Origin: a bacterium
GTDB lineage: Bacteria; Verrucomicrobiota; Verrucomicrobiae; JAJYAR01
Assembly: GCA_021779435.1 (NCBI GenBank)
Contig: JAJYAR010000116.1
Span: 1-7,578, forward strand
Direction: 5' to 3'
DNA length: 7,578 nucleotides
Shown here one piece after another: positions 1,856-6,832 of this stretch. The notes under the pieces were generated by a model, which did not search any database, was not told the DNA's origin, and saw nothing but the letters and a program-made list of their open reading frames with translations. The stretch's first letter is position 1. Every line of letters starts with the position of its first letter. The position numbers and the translations under genes were made by a program.

Positions 1856-2425
1856 ATGCTCGCGCTCGCACTGTGTCTTTCCTACGCGCTCGGCTGCGTT
1901 TCTCCCGGGTGGTGGCTTGTGCGTCGCACCACCGGTGGCGATCTGCGGAGTGAAGGCAGCGGCGGCACCGGGGCGACCAACGCCGCGCGTGTGCTCGGCC
2001 CGGGGGGGTTCGTTCTCGTCCTTCTGCTCGATGCGGCGAAGGCGGTGCTGGCGGTTTCGCTCGCCCGACGCCTGACCCACGCAGATCCCTGGCACGCGCT
2101 GGCCTTGCCGCTCGTCGTGGCCGGACACATCTGGCCCGTCACCCTTCGATTCCGTGGCGGCAAGGGCGCGGGTCCCCTTCTGGGCGGCTGCGTGGCGCTC
2201 AACCCCTGGTTCGCCGTTGCGGCTGCGGTGCCGGCGGCGCTGACCGCCGTGTTCAAGCGGCGCACGTTTGCGATCACGTCGGCGGCGGCCGCCGGCGGCA
2301 TCGGCTGCGCATGGTGGCTGCTCCCGGACCTGCCTGCCCGCGTCGCGTTCGCCTCGGCGGTCGGACTGGTCCTTGTCGCACACCGAACCCATTTCGCCCG
2401 CATGTTCAATCACAGCGTTCCCTGA
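1856..2425 (+). CDS. Divergent PlsY-type glycerol-3-phosphate acyltransferase
   Basis: This 189-residue membrane protein belongs to the PlsY family, which transfers an acyl group from acyl-phosphate to glycerol-3-phosphate at the cytoplasmic membrane, the first step of phospholipid synthesis. It opens with a hydrophobic helix. Motif 1 is seen as 'GSGGTGATNAARVLG' (residues 34-48), motif 2 as 'GHIWPVTLRFRGGKGAG' (90-106), and a weak motif 3 as 'HRTHFARMF' (176-184). Departures from the norm are GSGN becoming GSGG in motif 1, the usual Asn of motif 3 replaced by His179, and loss of the Gly-x-Glu after motif 3, because the protein stops at residue 189. It may be a specialised paralogue rather than the housekeeping enzyme. 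The frame is open far upstream, but only the ATG at 1856 gives a normal PlsY N-terminus. No Shine-Dalgarno sequence is visible. The next gene starts 15 bp after the stop. Confidence 0.85.
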   Translation: MLALALCLSYALGCVSPGWWLVRRTTGGDLRSEGSGGTGATNAARVLGPGGFVLVLLLDAAKAVLAVSLARRLTHADPWHALALPLVVAGHIWPVTLRFRGGKGAGPLLGGCVALNPWFAVAAAVPAALTAVFKRRTFAITSAAAAGGIGCAWWLLPDLPARVAFASAVGLVLVAHRTHFARMFNHSVP

Positions 2426-2440
2426 CGTCCCATTTCGCGC

Positions 2441-4129
2441 ATGGAAATCGTTACCCATTTCAAGATCGCGACGACCGATGACGAGTTTGAGCAGGTGCAC
2501 CGCCTCAACTACCGGACGTTCGTCGAGGAAATCCCGCAGCACGCGCCGAATCCCGAGGGGCGGCACGTGGACAAGTTCCACGCTGAGAACTCGTACGTGA
2601 TCGGCGTGCGCGACGGACGCGTCATCGCGCAGCTGGCACTGCGCCGCCGGCGCCCGTTCTCGCTGGATGGCAAGCTTCCCCAGCTCGACCAGTGGCTCCC
2701 TGCCGGGCGCAACGTCGTGGAGATCCGGCTGCTCGCGGTCGAGCCGCCCTATCGCAACGGCCCGGTTCCGGCGCAGCTGCTGCAATTCGCCGCGCAACAC
2801 TGCATCGACCGCGGCGACGACGTTGCAGTGATCTCGGGGGCCGTGAAGCGCCTGCGGTTGTATCGGGCGCTTGGATTCGAGCCGTTCGGTCCGCTGGTCG
2901 GGACAAAGGAGGCGCCGTACCAGCCGATGCTGCTGACCCTCGAGAATTTCGTGCAGGCCATGAAAGCGCGCCGCGGACTGCGCCGGAGCGCCACGGCCGA
3001 GCCGGCTTCCCAGCCGGTCATCAACCTCCTGCCCGGGCCCGTCGCCGTGTCAAAGGCCGTCCTCGCCGCTATGGGCCGGCCTGCCGTTCCCCATCGCGCG
3101 CCCGAGTTCATGCAGATGATCGGAGACGTGCGGCGCAGGCTGGCGGCGCTCGTGCACGCGAACGACGTGCAGATCATTCCCGGCAGCGGGTCGCTCGCGA
3201 ACGACGTTGTCGCCTGGCAGATCGCCGGGCTGCGCCGTCCCGGCGTGGTCATTTCGACCGGCGAGTTTGGCGAGCGCCTCGCGGACCACGCGCGGCGTGC
3301 GGGACTCGTTTTCCACTGGGAACGGCTGCCGTGGGGGACGACGCTGACCCGCGAGCAGGTGAGCCGGATTCTTGCGCAGGCCGCTTCACCGGGATGGCTC
3401 TGGATGGTCCACCACGAGACGTCCACGGGCGTGCTGCACAATCTCGACGATTTGAAGGCGGTCGCAAAGGAGCACTCGGTGCTGCTCTGTCTCGACACGA
3501 TCAGCTCGATCGGCGCCCTGCGCGTCGACCTGCGTGGCGTTCACCTCGCCAGCTGCGTCAGCGGGAAGGGTCTGGCCGGCCTTCCCGGCCTGGCCGTCGT
3601 ATTCCACGCCACAAAACCGGCGGTTCGCCAGGATGTGCCGCGGTATCTCGATCTCGGCATGTGGGCGTCATGCGATGGCGTGCCGTACACGCATTCCTCG
3701 AACCTTGTCACCGCACTCGACGTCGCGCTCGCCGAATTGGAGCGGCTGCCGGCCGGTCGCTGCGAAATGAATGACGATGCCCGCTGGCTGCGTCAGGAGC
3801 TGCGCGCCGGCGGCTTTGCCATCGGTGCCGAGGAGCCGCATGCCTCGCCGATCATCGTGACGATCAAGCTGCCGCCCGAGATCGGCTCCGAGAGGATCGG
3901 CGCCGCATTGGAGCGCCGCGGCTTCCTGACGAGCCATCACAGCGGTTACCTCGTGCAGCGTAACCGGATTCAGGTCTGCCTGATGGGGGCGCCTTCGCGG
4001 GCGGTGCTTGTCCAGCTGCTCGAGGCGCTTCGTGCCTCGGCGGGGGAGTGCCTGGGCCTTTCGCCTCAGACCTCGGCGGCCCCGGCCATCGCGAGGCCCG
4101 CGATCCAGCCCGTTGTCCACGCCGCCTGA
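2441..4129 (+). CDS. GNAT-like N-acyltransferase fused to class V aminotransferase
   Basis: This is a 562-residue two-domain protein. Residues 1 to about 178 resemble the GNAT group that includes FeeM-type N-acyl amino acid synthases and autoinducer-synthase-like proteins: 'RLNYRTFVEEIPQH' (21-34), 'VEIRLLAVEPPYRN' (93-106) and 'RLRLYRALGFEPFGP' (137-151). The acetyl-CoA loop of ordinary GNATs is not clear, which would suit acyl-ACP as donor. A short linker follows. Residues about 192-532 form a class V (alanine-glyoxylate / 2-aminoethylphosphonate type) PLP aminotransferase: the phosphate-binding segment 'PGSGSLAND' (247-255), 'HHETSTGVL' (324-332), Asp352 in 'DTISSIGALRVDL' for the pyridine nitrogen, and Lys376 in 'VSGKGLAG' for the Schiff base. 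The cofactor residues are intact. The Arg that usually holds the substrate carboxylate appears to be Gln511. The gene follows the PlsY-like gene by 15 bp, probably in one operon, without a Shine-Dalgarno sequence. The N-domain assignment is moderately sure, the C-domain very sure; the substrate is unknown. Confidence 0.9.
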   Translation: MEIVTHFKIATTDDEFEQVHRLNYRTFVEEIPQHAPNPEGRHVDKFHAENSYVIGVRDGRVIAQLALRRRRPFSLDGKLPQLDQWLPAGRNVVEIRLLAVEPPYRNGPVPAQLLQFAAQHCIDRGDDVAVISGAVKRLRLYRALGFEPFGPLVGTKEAPYQPMLLTLENFVQAMKARRGLRRSATAEPASQPVINLLPGPVAVSKAVLAAMGRPAVPHRAPEFMQMIGDVRRRLAALVHANDVQIIPGSGSLANDVVAWQIAGLRRPGVVISTGEFGERLADHARRAGLVFHWERLPWGTTLTREQVSRILAQAASPGWLWMVHHETSTGVLHNLDDLKAVAKEHSVLLCLDTISSIGALRVDLRGVHLASCVSGKGLAGLPGLAVVFHATKPAVRQDVPRYLDLGMWASCDGVPYTHSSNLVTALDVALAELERLPAGRCEMNDDARWLRQELRAGGFAIGAEEPHASPIIVTIKLPPEIGSERIGAALERRGFLTSHHSGYLVQRNRIQVCLMGAPSRAVLVQLLEALRASAGECLGLSPQTSAAPAIARPAIQPVVHAA

Positions 4130-5319
4130 AAGTTGAAGCCGCCGGTCACGCCGTCGATGTCGAGGACCTCGCCGGCGAAGTGAAGACCGGGGCGCAGCCG
4201 GCTCTCCATGGTGCGGAAGTCGACTTCGCTGAGGCGCACGCCACCGCAGGTGACGAACTCGTCCTTGAACAGGCTCTTTCCAACGACCTTGAATTCGGCG
4301 GTGGTGACCTGTGCTGCGAGCGCGCCGAGCGCGGCGTTGCCCACGCCGGACCACGGAGTCGTGAGCGCGATGCCCGCGCCGCCGGCCAGCCTTTCCCAGA
4401 GACGTTGCGGAACCGGGACCGGACTCCAGGTGCCGATCTGCTTGCGCGGATTCCGCTCCCGAACGGACGTCAGCTCACGGACGAGCGAATCGCGGGTGTG
4501 CGGCGGGGCGAAATTGACGCCCAGGAGAAACTCGTAATTGCGGTTTGCCAGTTCGCGGGCGCCCCACGCGGAGAGCTTGAGAATCGCAGGGCCGCTCAGC
4601 CCCCAGTGAGTGACCAGCAGCGGCCCGCTTTCGCGCAGCTTCGTGCCGGAAATCGCGGTCACGGCGTTCTCGACGGACACGCCTGAGAGTCCGATCAGCC
4701 GCGCGTCATCGATGTGAAAGGTGAACAGTGACGGGACCGGCGGTTCGATGGCGTGACCTAGCGATTCAGCGATGGAGAAACCTGCGGAAGAGCGGTTGCC
4801 GCCGGTGGCCAGCAGCAGGCGCTCGCAACGGCGGCCCGTGCCGTCGGTCAGGGTCACCCACCAGCCGGCGGACGCGTCCTTTCCGGCGGGTTCGACTTTT
4901 CGCACGCCAAGGCTCGTGACCACGTGGACCCCGGCATCGGCGGCCGCCTTGGTCAGGCAATCGACGATCGAGGCTGAATCGTCGCTTACGGGAAAAACGC
5001 GGCCGTCCTCCTCCACCTTGGTTTCGACGCCTCGTTCGGCGAGCCAGGCGATCATGTCCCGGGGCTGCCAGCGATGAAAGGCTCCCAGCAATTCACGTCC
5101 GCCCCGCGGATAGCGCTTCACGAGTTCCCGCGGCTCGAAGCAACCGTGGGTGACGTTGCAGCGCCCGCCTCCGGAGATGCGAACCTTGGCGAGCGGGTTG
5201 GCCGTCGCCTCGTAGATCGTCACCTCGCCGGACGTGCCCAGCTTCTCCGCCGCCGCGATGGCAGCGAAGAATCCGGCGGCTCCGCCGCCGATGATGATGA
5301 CACGCGTCTGGACTGACAT
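4066..5319 (-). CDS. BaiN/HI0933-family FAD-dependent oxidoreductase
   Basis: This 417-residue protein has the usual length for the HI0933/YhiN/BaiN flavoprotein family. The FAD-binding motif GGGAAG lies at residues 11-16, and the strand ending in Glu37 ('VTIYEA') would hold the adenosine ribose. The family signature 'KVRISGGGRCNVTHG' is at 45-59. Near the C-terminus are the equivalents of 'TxGGV-L-EVD--TMES', 'GLHFAGEVLDIDGVTGG' and 'NFQAAWTTGWIAG', which close the FAD site. One member, BaiN, acts in bile-acid dehydroxylation, but most relatives have no proven reaction, so the gene name should not be carried over. The ATG at 5319 places the GxGxxG loop at the normal distance. No Shine-Dalgarno sequence is visible. 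A perfect 10-bp palindrome, GAACGCGTTC, sits at 5336-5345, 16 bp upstream. The last 64 bp lie antisense to the end of the fusion gene. Confidence 0.93.
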   Translation of the reverse strand: MSVQTRVIIIGGGAAGFFAAIAAAEKLGTSGEVTIYEATANPLAKVRISGGGRCNVTHGCFEPRELVKRYPRGGRELLGAFHRWQPRDMIAWLAERGVETKVEEDGRVFPVSDDSASIVDCLTKAAADAGVHVVTSLGVRKVEPAGKDASAGWWVTLTDGTGRRCERLLLATGGNRSSAGFSIAESLGHAIEPPVPSLFTFHIDDARLIGLSGVSVENAVTAISGTKLRESGPLLVTHWGLSGPAILKLSAWGARELANRNYEFLLGVNFAPPHTRDSLVRELTSVRERNPRKQIGTWSPVPVPQRLWERLAGGAGIALTTPWSGVGNAALGALAAQVTTAEFKVVGKSLFKDEFVTCGGVRLSEVDFRTMESRLRPGLHFAGEVLDIDGVTGGFNFQAAWTTGWIAGLAMAGAAEV

Positions 5320-6154: not shown

Positions 6155-6832
6155 ATGAAGAACTTCCTGATGGTATCGCTCGTAGCGCTGTTCGCAGCCG
6201 CCTCGGTCCACGCCGGCATTCCGCGCCAGACCGCGGTGGAGCGGGTCGAATCCTGCGAGGCTGTCTGGCAGGAGTTCCAGCGGCGTCCTGAGACAGCCGT
6301 TCCACCTGCCGTCCTCCAACGCGCCAAGGCGCTGATCATCCTGAATCAGTTCAAGGCGGGCGCGGTGCTCGGCGTGAAGGACGGCTACGGCGTGATCATG
6401 GTGAAGAAGGCCGACGGCCGCTGGAGCCTTCCCGTTCTGATCAACGCCGGCGAAACCAGCCTCGGGCTGCAGCTCGGTGCGAACGCCATGACCTCGATCC
6501 TGGTGATCACCGACGAGAAACTTCCGCGCGTGCTGTTCAACCAGCGGTTCAACCTTGGCGTGGACGCGAAGGCCGTGGCCGGTCCGAACGCCGCCGAGAA
6601 GGAAAATTTCAACGAGGCAATCCTGACGACCCCGATCCTCGCGTACACCAAGTCCGTCGGACTTTTCGTGGGCGCCACGATCAAGGCGGGGCACATCTCC
6701 CGTGACGACGAGGCCAACTACGTCCTGTACGGCACGAAGTACACGATGCCGGAGCTCCTCTACGGTGACTTCGTGCAGCCGGTGAAGGAAGTGGAGCCCC
6801 TCATGCGGCAGGTTCAGGCGGCCGCTCCGTAA
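6155..6832 (+). CDS. Secreted SYLF (Ysc84-type) lipid-binding domain protein
   Basis: This is a 225-residue exported protein with a SYLF (DUF500/Ysc84) domain. A Sec signal peptide is clear: Lys2, a hydrophobic stretch at residues 4-16, and a cleavage site after 'SVHA' (residue 20). There is no lipobox cysteine, so the mature protein is likely periplasmic. The domain starts with a helix, 'TAVERVESCEAVWQEFQ', followed by 'VLQRAKALIILNQFKAGAVLG', 'GYGVIMVKKADGRWSLPVLI' and 'GETSLGLQLGANAMTSILVI', the usual order of a SYLF fold. Eukaryotic members bind phosphoinositides or actin; the role of bacterial periplasmic ones is unknown. The frame is open well upstream of 6155 and through the metallopeptidase gene, but only this ATG gives a signal peptide. 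A promoter candidate and a terminator flank it, so it is probably transcribed alone. Confidence 0.92.
   Translation: MKNFLMVSLVALFAAASVHAGIPRQTAVERVESCEAVWQEFQRRPETAVPPAVLQRAKALIILNQFKAGAVLGVKDGYGVIMVKKADGRWSLPVLINAGETSLGLQLGANAMTSILVITDEKLPRVLFNQRFNLGVDAKAVAGPNAAEKENFNEAILTTPILAYTKSVGLFVGATIKAGHISRDDEANYVLYGTKYTMPELLYGDFVQPVKEVEPLMRQVQAAAP

Follow-up and report, generated by a model that had tools for sequence, protein, structure and literature searches.

A 7,578-nucleotide stretch of bacterial DNA (the window; positions 1 to 7,578 of contig JAJYAR010000116.1, assembly GCA_021779435.1, from the JAJYAR01 lineage of the Verrucomicrobiota) encodes a PlsY-like membrane acyltransferase and, 15 bp downstream on the same strand, a fusion protein in which a FeeM-like GNAT domain precedes a class V aminotransferase dependent on pyridoxal phosphate (PLP). 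Gene calls confirm the pair at the coordinates first given in an earlier annotation made from the letters alone (the first-pass annotation). The two genes very likely serve one pathway, because they are linked in most of the related loci examined, occur as triple fusions and co-occur in the class to which the Opitutaceae genome G001 belongs. That this is a lipid-amide pathway giving N,O-diacyl serinol or its phosphate has, in our estimate, about an even chance of being correct. The aminotransferase half would convert dihydroxyacetone phosphate (DHAP) or dihydroxyacetone to a small amine, most likely serinol or its phosphate; the fused GNAT half would transfer a long acyl chain to the amine nitrogen, as FeeM does with tyrosine; and the PlsY paralog would acylate the remaining hydroxyl, using acyl-phosphate. 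The product would be a phosphatidic acid with an amide replacing the sn-2 ester. Such a lipid could be passed on to the usual head-group enzymes or, in certain Bacilli, to a lipoteichoic acid (LTA)-synthase-like enzyme encoded next door. We infer every substrate of this scheme, and its product.

Conservation and linkage of the gene pair

A genome scan revealed 549 stretches that encode relatives of the fusion, from which 80 loci were kept, and 4737 of the 7993 database proteins scored as candidates match the fusion at E <= 0.001 (not all of these are full fusions), which excludes a chance origin of the fusion. In 57/80 loci the fusion is immediately preceded by a PlsY-like frame in the same orientation, the matched domains of the two being 158 nt apart or less; two of the 23 loci without such a frame sit at a contig edge. 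PlsY, GNAT and aminotransferase are joined in one frame in P0071 and in L032:8381-10762, which are 62% identical to each other. Phyla were read from the record titles, which may be wrong for metagenome-assembled genomes (MAGs). The titles among the 57 linked loci include Verrucomicrobia, Planctomycetota, Gemmatimonadetes (L059, L073), Chloroflexia/Thermomicrobiales (L054, L072), an Acidobacteria MAG (L023) and Geomonas (L056). Of the three outcomes that the first-pass annotation held against its own proposal, absence of the fusion from relatives, an N-domain like a plain acetyl-CoA GNAT and two genes that never co-occur elsewhere, none came true. The pair is not limited to the Verrucomicrobiota, where that annotation suggested searching, and extends by title to several other phyla.

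The distribution was then resolved by taxon. In the class of G001, which includes Limisphaera (G021), the fusion is matched at E <= 1e-60 in 8/141 genomes, nearly over the full length in six and over the GNAT domain only in G260 and G252. A PF02660 (PlsY family) copy of 109-136 bits lies beside the match in seven of these eight genomes (not G252), and none of the 133 other genomes of the class has a copy of that score; two PF02660 hits occur in four of the 133, as strong pairs (G204, G280), as split pieces (G231) or with a second hit of 20.8 bits (G249). The order of the Geobacteraceae MAG G020 contains matches in 7/141 genomes, one of them over the aminotransferase half only, with an adjacent PlsY-like gene in 4/7. 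In the order of Planococcus (G025), 128/200 genomes match the fusion; among 30 matches from the top of the table, which leave out G025 and one partial match, a PlsY-like gene is adjacent in 14, and all 30 genomes have two to four PF02660 copies. For Bacillales, an extra PF02660 copy was rejected as an indicator of the fusion, since 16/20 fusion-free genomes examined there have at least two copies. The phylum of the Chloroflexia MAG G015 has a single match among 151 genomes, which is G015 itself. The pair is frequent in a single order, and its occurrence in other groups is scattered.

The evolutionary distances of the two proteins agree. Over 16 genomes, fusion distances correlate with those of the operon PlsY with r 0.63 (0/5000 permutations as high) and with those of the canonical PlsY with r 0.48 (3/5000 permutations); the partial correlation between fusion and operon PlsY is 0.54 when the canonical-PlsY signal is removed. 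Over the 57 loci, the correlation between fusion and operon PlsY is 0.66 (0/1000 permutations).

Domains of the fusion and the acceptor pocket of the PlsY-like protein

The GNAT half exceeds the cut-off of the FeeM profile PF21926 (43 bits versus 27, residues 18-153 of the fusion) and that of the N-acyltransferase-type profile PF13444 (27.6 bits versus 22.4). AlphaFold2 yields two confident domains for the fusion, with a mean predicted local distance difference test (pLDDT) score of 92.4, and a pLDDT of 93.2 for the GNAT domain alone. In the fold comparison, the top six VIA rows, which cover 170-174 residues, belong to FeeM and five entries of acyl-homoserine lactone (AHL) synthases, and the FeeM-like fold extends across the whole GNAT domain. 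The classical acetyl-CoA P-loop pattern is absent from the GNAT half in 57/57 sequences. These profiles and models bear out the fusion of a FeeM/autoinducer-synthase-like GNAT with a class V aminotransferase as first described, and the best fold match is not a plain acetyl-CoA GNAT. The GNAT half is a putative long-chain acyltransferase. It differs from the N-acyl amino acid synthase FeeM (2g0b) in being fused to an aminotransferase and encoded beside a PlsY-like gene, and from the AHL synthases BjaI, RpaI, TofI, LasI and MesI, which use S-adenosylmethionine, make lactones and have no fused aminotransferase. A GNAT-only relative without an aminotransferase (L125:1477-2085) adjoins a gene whose start resembles a lipoyl-domain protein by eye.

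The second half of the fusion exceeds the Aminotran_5 cut-off (PF00266, 31.7 bits versus 21.5, residues 211-390). Foldseek and profile searches group it with the PhnW and alanine-glyoxylate aminotransferases (AGTs), with which it shares the fold and the PLP site. Its intact PLP site indicates that this half is active. In the class V AGT/PhnW family, an arginine binds the acid group of the substrate. Five PDB relatives mostly show this arginine in a RIG- or RVG-like motif (1m32, 1vjo and 2dr1 by eye), whereas the fusion carries a glutamine, Gln511, in its place. When 289 further sequences (106 + 117 database proteins and 66 open frames of the loci; some genomes overlap the 87 aligned members) were placed on the alignment, this column held 278 glutamines, one arginine and 10 gaps. 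The loss of the substrate arginine speaks against a main substrate pair of ordinary amino or keto acids, so an ordinary keto acid is not a likely acceptor. Close to this site, at window positions 3965-3976, W509R and F512V are the only differences (2/562 residues) between the fusion and its database twin P0001; arginine at 509 occurs in 1/87 aligned members, the window protein itself, and in 1/289 further sequences (P0346). This copy may be less than fully active, or the two differences may stem from faulty reads. The 3′ end of the fusion gene overlaps a convergent HI0933-like flavoprotein gene (4066-5319, minus strand) by 64 bp (4066-4129).

The PlsY-like protein belongs to PF02660 (113 bits versus a cut-off of 24.1) and stays under the PlsY equivalog cut-off (TIGR00023, 88.9 bits versus 137.2). 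In aaPlsY, Ser35, Arg45, Lys104 and Asn180 form the phosphate clamp, and Ser142 and His177 contact the 2-OH of glycerol-3-phosphate (PMC5700162). The window copy shares motif 1 and Lys104 with aaPlsY (5xj5) but lacks the full glycerol-3-phosphate pocket: S35, R45, K103 and H176 are retained, whereas Ser142 is replaced by Thr and Asn180 by His (Table 1). The operon gene is a second copy beside a canonical PlsY in most genomes searched: PF02660 copies number at least two in 19 of the 26 genomes behind the loci, one in five and none in two. Of the 24 genomes that have a copy, 23 have a top-scoring one of 153-191 bits. Among the best, canonical copies of 23 genomes, 22 have Ser142.

The fusion-linked copies outside Bacillales show a different pocket. 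The clamp of Ser35, Arg45 and Lys/Arg104 is retained in 60/64 and Asn180 in 42/64, and Ser142 is found in 0/64 (Gly 48, Ala 12, Thr 2, Trp 2); this set includes the window and leaves out L120, which has the same pattern (Ser35, Arg45, Lys104, Gly for Ser142, Asn180). Among 28 fusion-linked copies of Bacillales, one short fragment having been dropped, 16 retain the clamp and six Ser142. The controls were 20 weaker PF02660 copies of fusion-free Bacillales genomes (clamp 2, Ser142 0) and 20 unlinked copies of fusion-bearing genomes (clamp 0, Ser142 0). Loss of Ser142 alone was rejected as an operon marker, since PlsY paralogs at large lose it too; most non-Bacillales operon copies are marked by the kept clamp together with the lost C2-OH contact. 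This pattern suggests an acceptor that is phosphorylated and bears a different group at C2, such as serinol phosphate or its N-acyl form. The window PlsY itself, with Thr for Ser142 and His for Asn180, departs partly from the pattern.

Table 1. Coordinates of the gene pair and its key sites in the window.
Feature	Position	Strand	Remarks
PlsY-like membrane acyltransferase, 189 aa	1856..2425	+	PF02660; fusion-linked paralog of glycerol-3-phosphate acyltransferase
PlsY motif 1, S35 to R45	1958..1990	+	aaPlsY Ser35, Thr41 and Arg45 all retained
K103, equivalent to aaPlsY Lys104 (phosphate clamp), retained	2162..2164	+	
T141 in place of aaPlsY Ser142	2276..2278	+	Alignment of the window protein less sure here
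H176 (aaPlsY His177, retained) to H179 (aaPlsY Asn180, altered)	2381..2392	+	
GNAT-aminotransferase fusion protein, 562 aa	2441..4129	+	Gene calls, profiles, AlphaFold2 model
N-terminal GNAT domain, residues 1-178	2441..2974	+	FeeM/AHL-synthase-like
Class V PLP aminotransferase domain, residues 192-532	3014..4036	+	Profiles, Foldseek
PLP site, D352 to K376 (aspartate, Schiff-base lysine)	3494..3568	+	Both invariant in 87/87 aligned members
Q511	3971..3973	+	Gln in 87/87; arginine in AGT/PhnW relatives

The predicted product and competing explanations

Enzymes of the fusion's type are in all likelihood already known. The N-acyl serinol synthase (NAS) of Cohen 2017 is said to be a two-domain enzyme with an aminotransferase, and the window protein likewise holds an aminotransferase domain and an N-acyltransferase in one chain. 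Compared by description, the human-associated N-acyl serinol synthases, among them that of MIBiG cluster BGC0001683 from Bacillus sp. 2_A_57_CT2, have a PF13444-type N-acyltransferase, as the window fusion does; the passages that describe them mention no PlsY partner, whereas the window fusion has one. The first-pass annotation, which knew of no described pathway, overlooked these enzymes. NAS genes of Desulfitobacterium hafniense DP7 and Bacillus sp. 2_A_57_CT2 are reported to yield N-palmitoyl serinol in Escherichia coli (PMC9605164, citing Cohen), and a review tabulates the Gemella NAS with serinol (PMC11271093). BGC0001683, named an N-acyl serinol cluster, shows a weak resemblance to two phosphonate clusters of Chloroflexota (score 0.16; PMC12795557). 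The likeness would be accounted for by an aminotransferase domain of the PhnW type. A route to the amine also has precedent. The N-terminal aminotransferase domain of RtxA (Bradyrhizobium elkanii), which is part of a larger fused enzyme, converts DHAP to serinol phosphate (PMC3222319); it is likened here by description, not by sequence, and is fused to a sulfhydrylase-like domain, whereas the window aminotransferase is fused to an acyltransferase. Some human transaminases slowly perform the same conversion (PMC9283133).

What is new is that such a fusion is coupled, in a conserved way, to a modified PlsY, and that this coupling predicts an amide phospholipid. More tentatively, and with a probability that we place clearly short of even, many Bacilli, together with lineages dispersed over other phyla, may make a parallel phosphatidic acid, 1-O-acyl-2-N-acyl-serinol phosphate, in which serinol replaces glycerol; it would be assembled by the dedicated PlsY paralog and the fused transaminase-acyltransferase, and then receive head groups from the normal phospholipid enzymes or be used by an LTA-synthase-like enzyme. 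Such a compound would be a sphingolipid-like amide phospholipid made by glycerolipid logic, and the pathway would give a function to the second PlsY copy of fusion-bearing genomes. If NAS-type enzymes usually adjoin a PlsY paralog, free N-acyl serinol may be only an intermediate of a membrane lipid. N-acyl serinols of human-associated bacteria have been discussed as signals to host receptors. One article of 2025 raises the speculative idea that they might be acylated by hosts to phospholipid-like products (PMC12594153); with the operon, bacteria would be able to do so on their own. The predicted amide phospholipid was not found reported in the literature searched, and no pathway of PlsY with a GNAT-aminotransferase is named in its titles and abstract starts, most subscription journals being outside the reach of the search.

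The division of labor in the first-pass annotation, in which the aminotransferase makes an amine, the GNAT acylates it and the PlsY-like protein O-acylates a product or supplies a matching lipid backbone, agrees with the linkage, the FeeM-like fold and the triple fusions; for the PlsY step it remains a prediction. Two observations weigh against the serinol phospholipid pathway. The plain GNAT SACOL1063 comes close behind FeeM and the AHL synthases in the fold comparison, and 6/26 genomes searched carry the fusion but no extra PlsY copy. From the latter it follows that N-acylation must at times be useful by itself, or that another acyltransferase steps in.

These six genomes also favor an explanation that we consider unlikely but serious, in which the fusion by itself yields a fatty amide, free N-acyl serinol or another, that is secreted or acts as a signal, and the PlsY paralog only adds glycerol-3-phosphate acyltransferase capacity to balance acyl flux. 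The free N-acyl serinol obtained from NAS genes in E. coli fits this explanation, whereas the tight linkage, the two triple fusions, the agreeing distances of both genes and the altered glycerol-3-phosphate pocket of the operon PlsY copies argue against it.

Less probable still is a route in which the product of the fusion is an N-acyl amino acid (N-acyl glycine or alanine, for example) that the PlsY paralog then O-acylates at a 3-hydroxy position of its acyl chain, to give an aminolipid like the ornithine and glycine lipids. The OlsBA and GlsBA systems follow the same logic of N-acylation and then O-acylation, but their amine is an amino acid and their O-acyltransferases (OlsA, SalA) share the motifs of PlsC, not PlsY (PMC11631085). 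The window has no PlsC-like partner of this kind; its partner is a PF02660 protein. The invariant glutamine in place of the AGT/PhnW arginine and the phosphate-binding residues retained in most non-Bacillales operon PlsY copies also stand against an amino acid as the amine.

Plain acetylation and phosphonate chemistry are both disfavoured. A role of the fusion in amine detoxification, with the GNAT half as an ordinary acetyltransferase, is very improbable; the closeness of SACOL1063 would suit it, and the better matches to FeeM and the AHL synthases would not. Least credible is a 2-aminoethylphosphonate transaminase whose product is an N-acyl phosphonate lipid, because, although the best solved relative by profile is such a transaminase (7e7g, 149.6 bits), the NCBIfam PhnW-AepZ score over residues 196-531 is far under its cut-off (144.8 versus 360.8 bits), the other PhnW equivalog scores are under theirs (93.6 versus 400.8; 90.4 versus 296), and phosphoenolpyruvate mutase is over its cut-off in only 1/26 fusion-bearing genomes, with weaker matches in nine more that are of the same kind as those in 6/14 controls.

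Neighboring genes and other features of the window

An all-against-all comparison of the frames near the fusion in 81 loci (the 80 and the window) revealed no wider conserved neighborhood. Excluding the fusion, the PlsY-like gene and presumed shadow frames, the largest of the 45 largest clusters listed covers 10/81 loci, and the recurring neighbors are lineage-specific: LTA-synthase-like genes, BrxC, and a CDP-alcohol phosphatidyltransferase with a phosphatase. On a 690-kb plasmid of Cytobacillus spongiae (L156:5393-9443), the PlsY-like, fusion and LTA-synthase-family genes are close-packed in one row, the last two overlapping by 4 bp; the LTA-synthase-family protein is termed LTA-synthase-like because it scores under the LtaS cut-off (656.7 bits versus 970). 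Loci from Rossellomorea and Planococcus (L074, L075) likewise have such a gene 3′ of the fusion, as do 4/30 of the loci L126-L155, namely L127, from the same genome as L075, and L128-L130. In a Geobacteraceae MAG (L063:6105-8926), the fusion, here without a PlsY-like gene, is preceded by a CDP-alcohol phosphatidyltransferase and followed by a DSP/PTP-type phosphatase. These LTA-synthase-like, phosphatidyltransferase and phosphatase neighbors are plausibly phospholipid-facing enzymes, which would suit a phospholipid-like product within their lineages. In two loci with Desulfobacterota and Thermodesulfobacteriota titles (L060:2118-4911, L079:8629-11295), the fusion is flanked by a DCC1-like redox protein and a Yip1-domain membrane protein (identified by Pfam in L060, alike by eye in L079); the genomes of both loci have no PF02660 match.

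Downstream in the window lie genes for a zincin-like small protein (PF06262, 5623-5988) and a Ysc84-domain protein (6170-6832), with no evident operon tie. The long gap 5′ of the PlsY-like gene contains an inverted repeat at 1450-1532, whose 27-nt arms are 81% complementary and 29 nt apart. The repeat pattern has no match in 217 loci, and the element may be a dispersed palindromic one.

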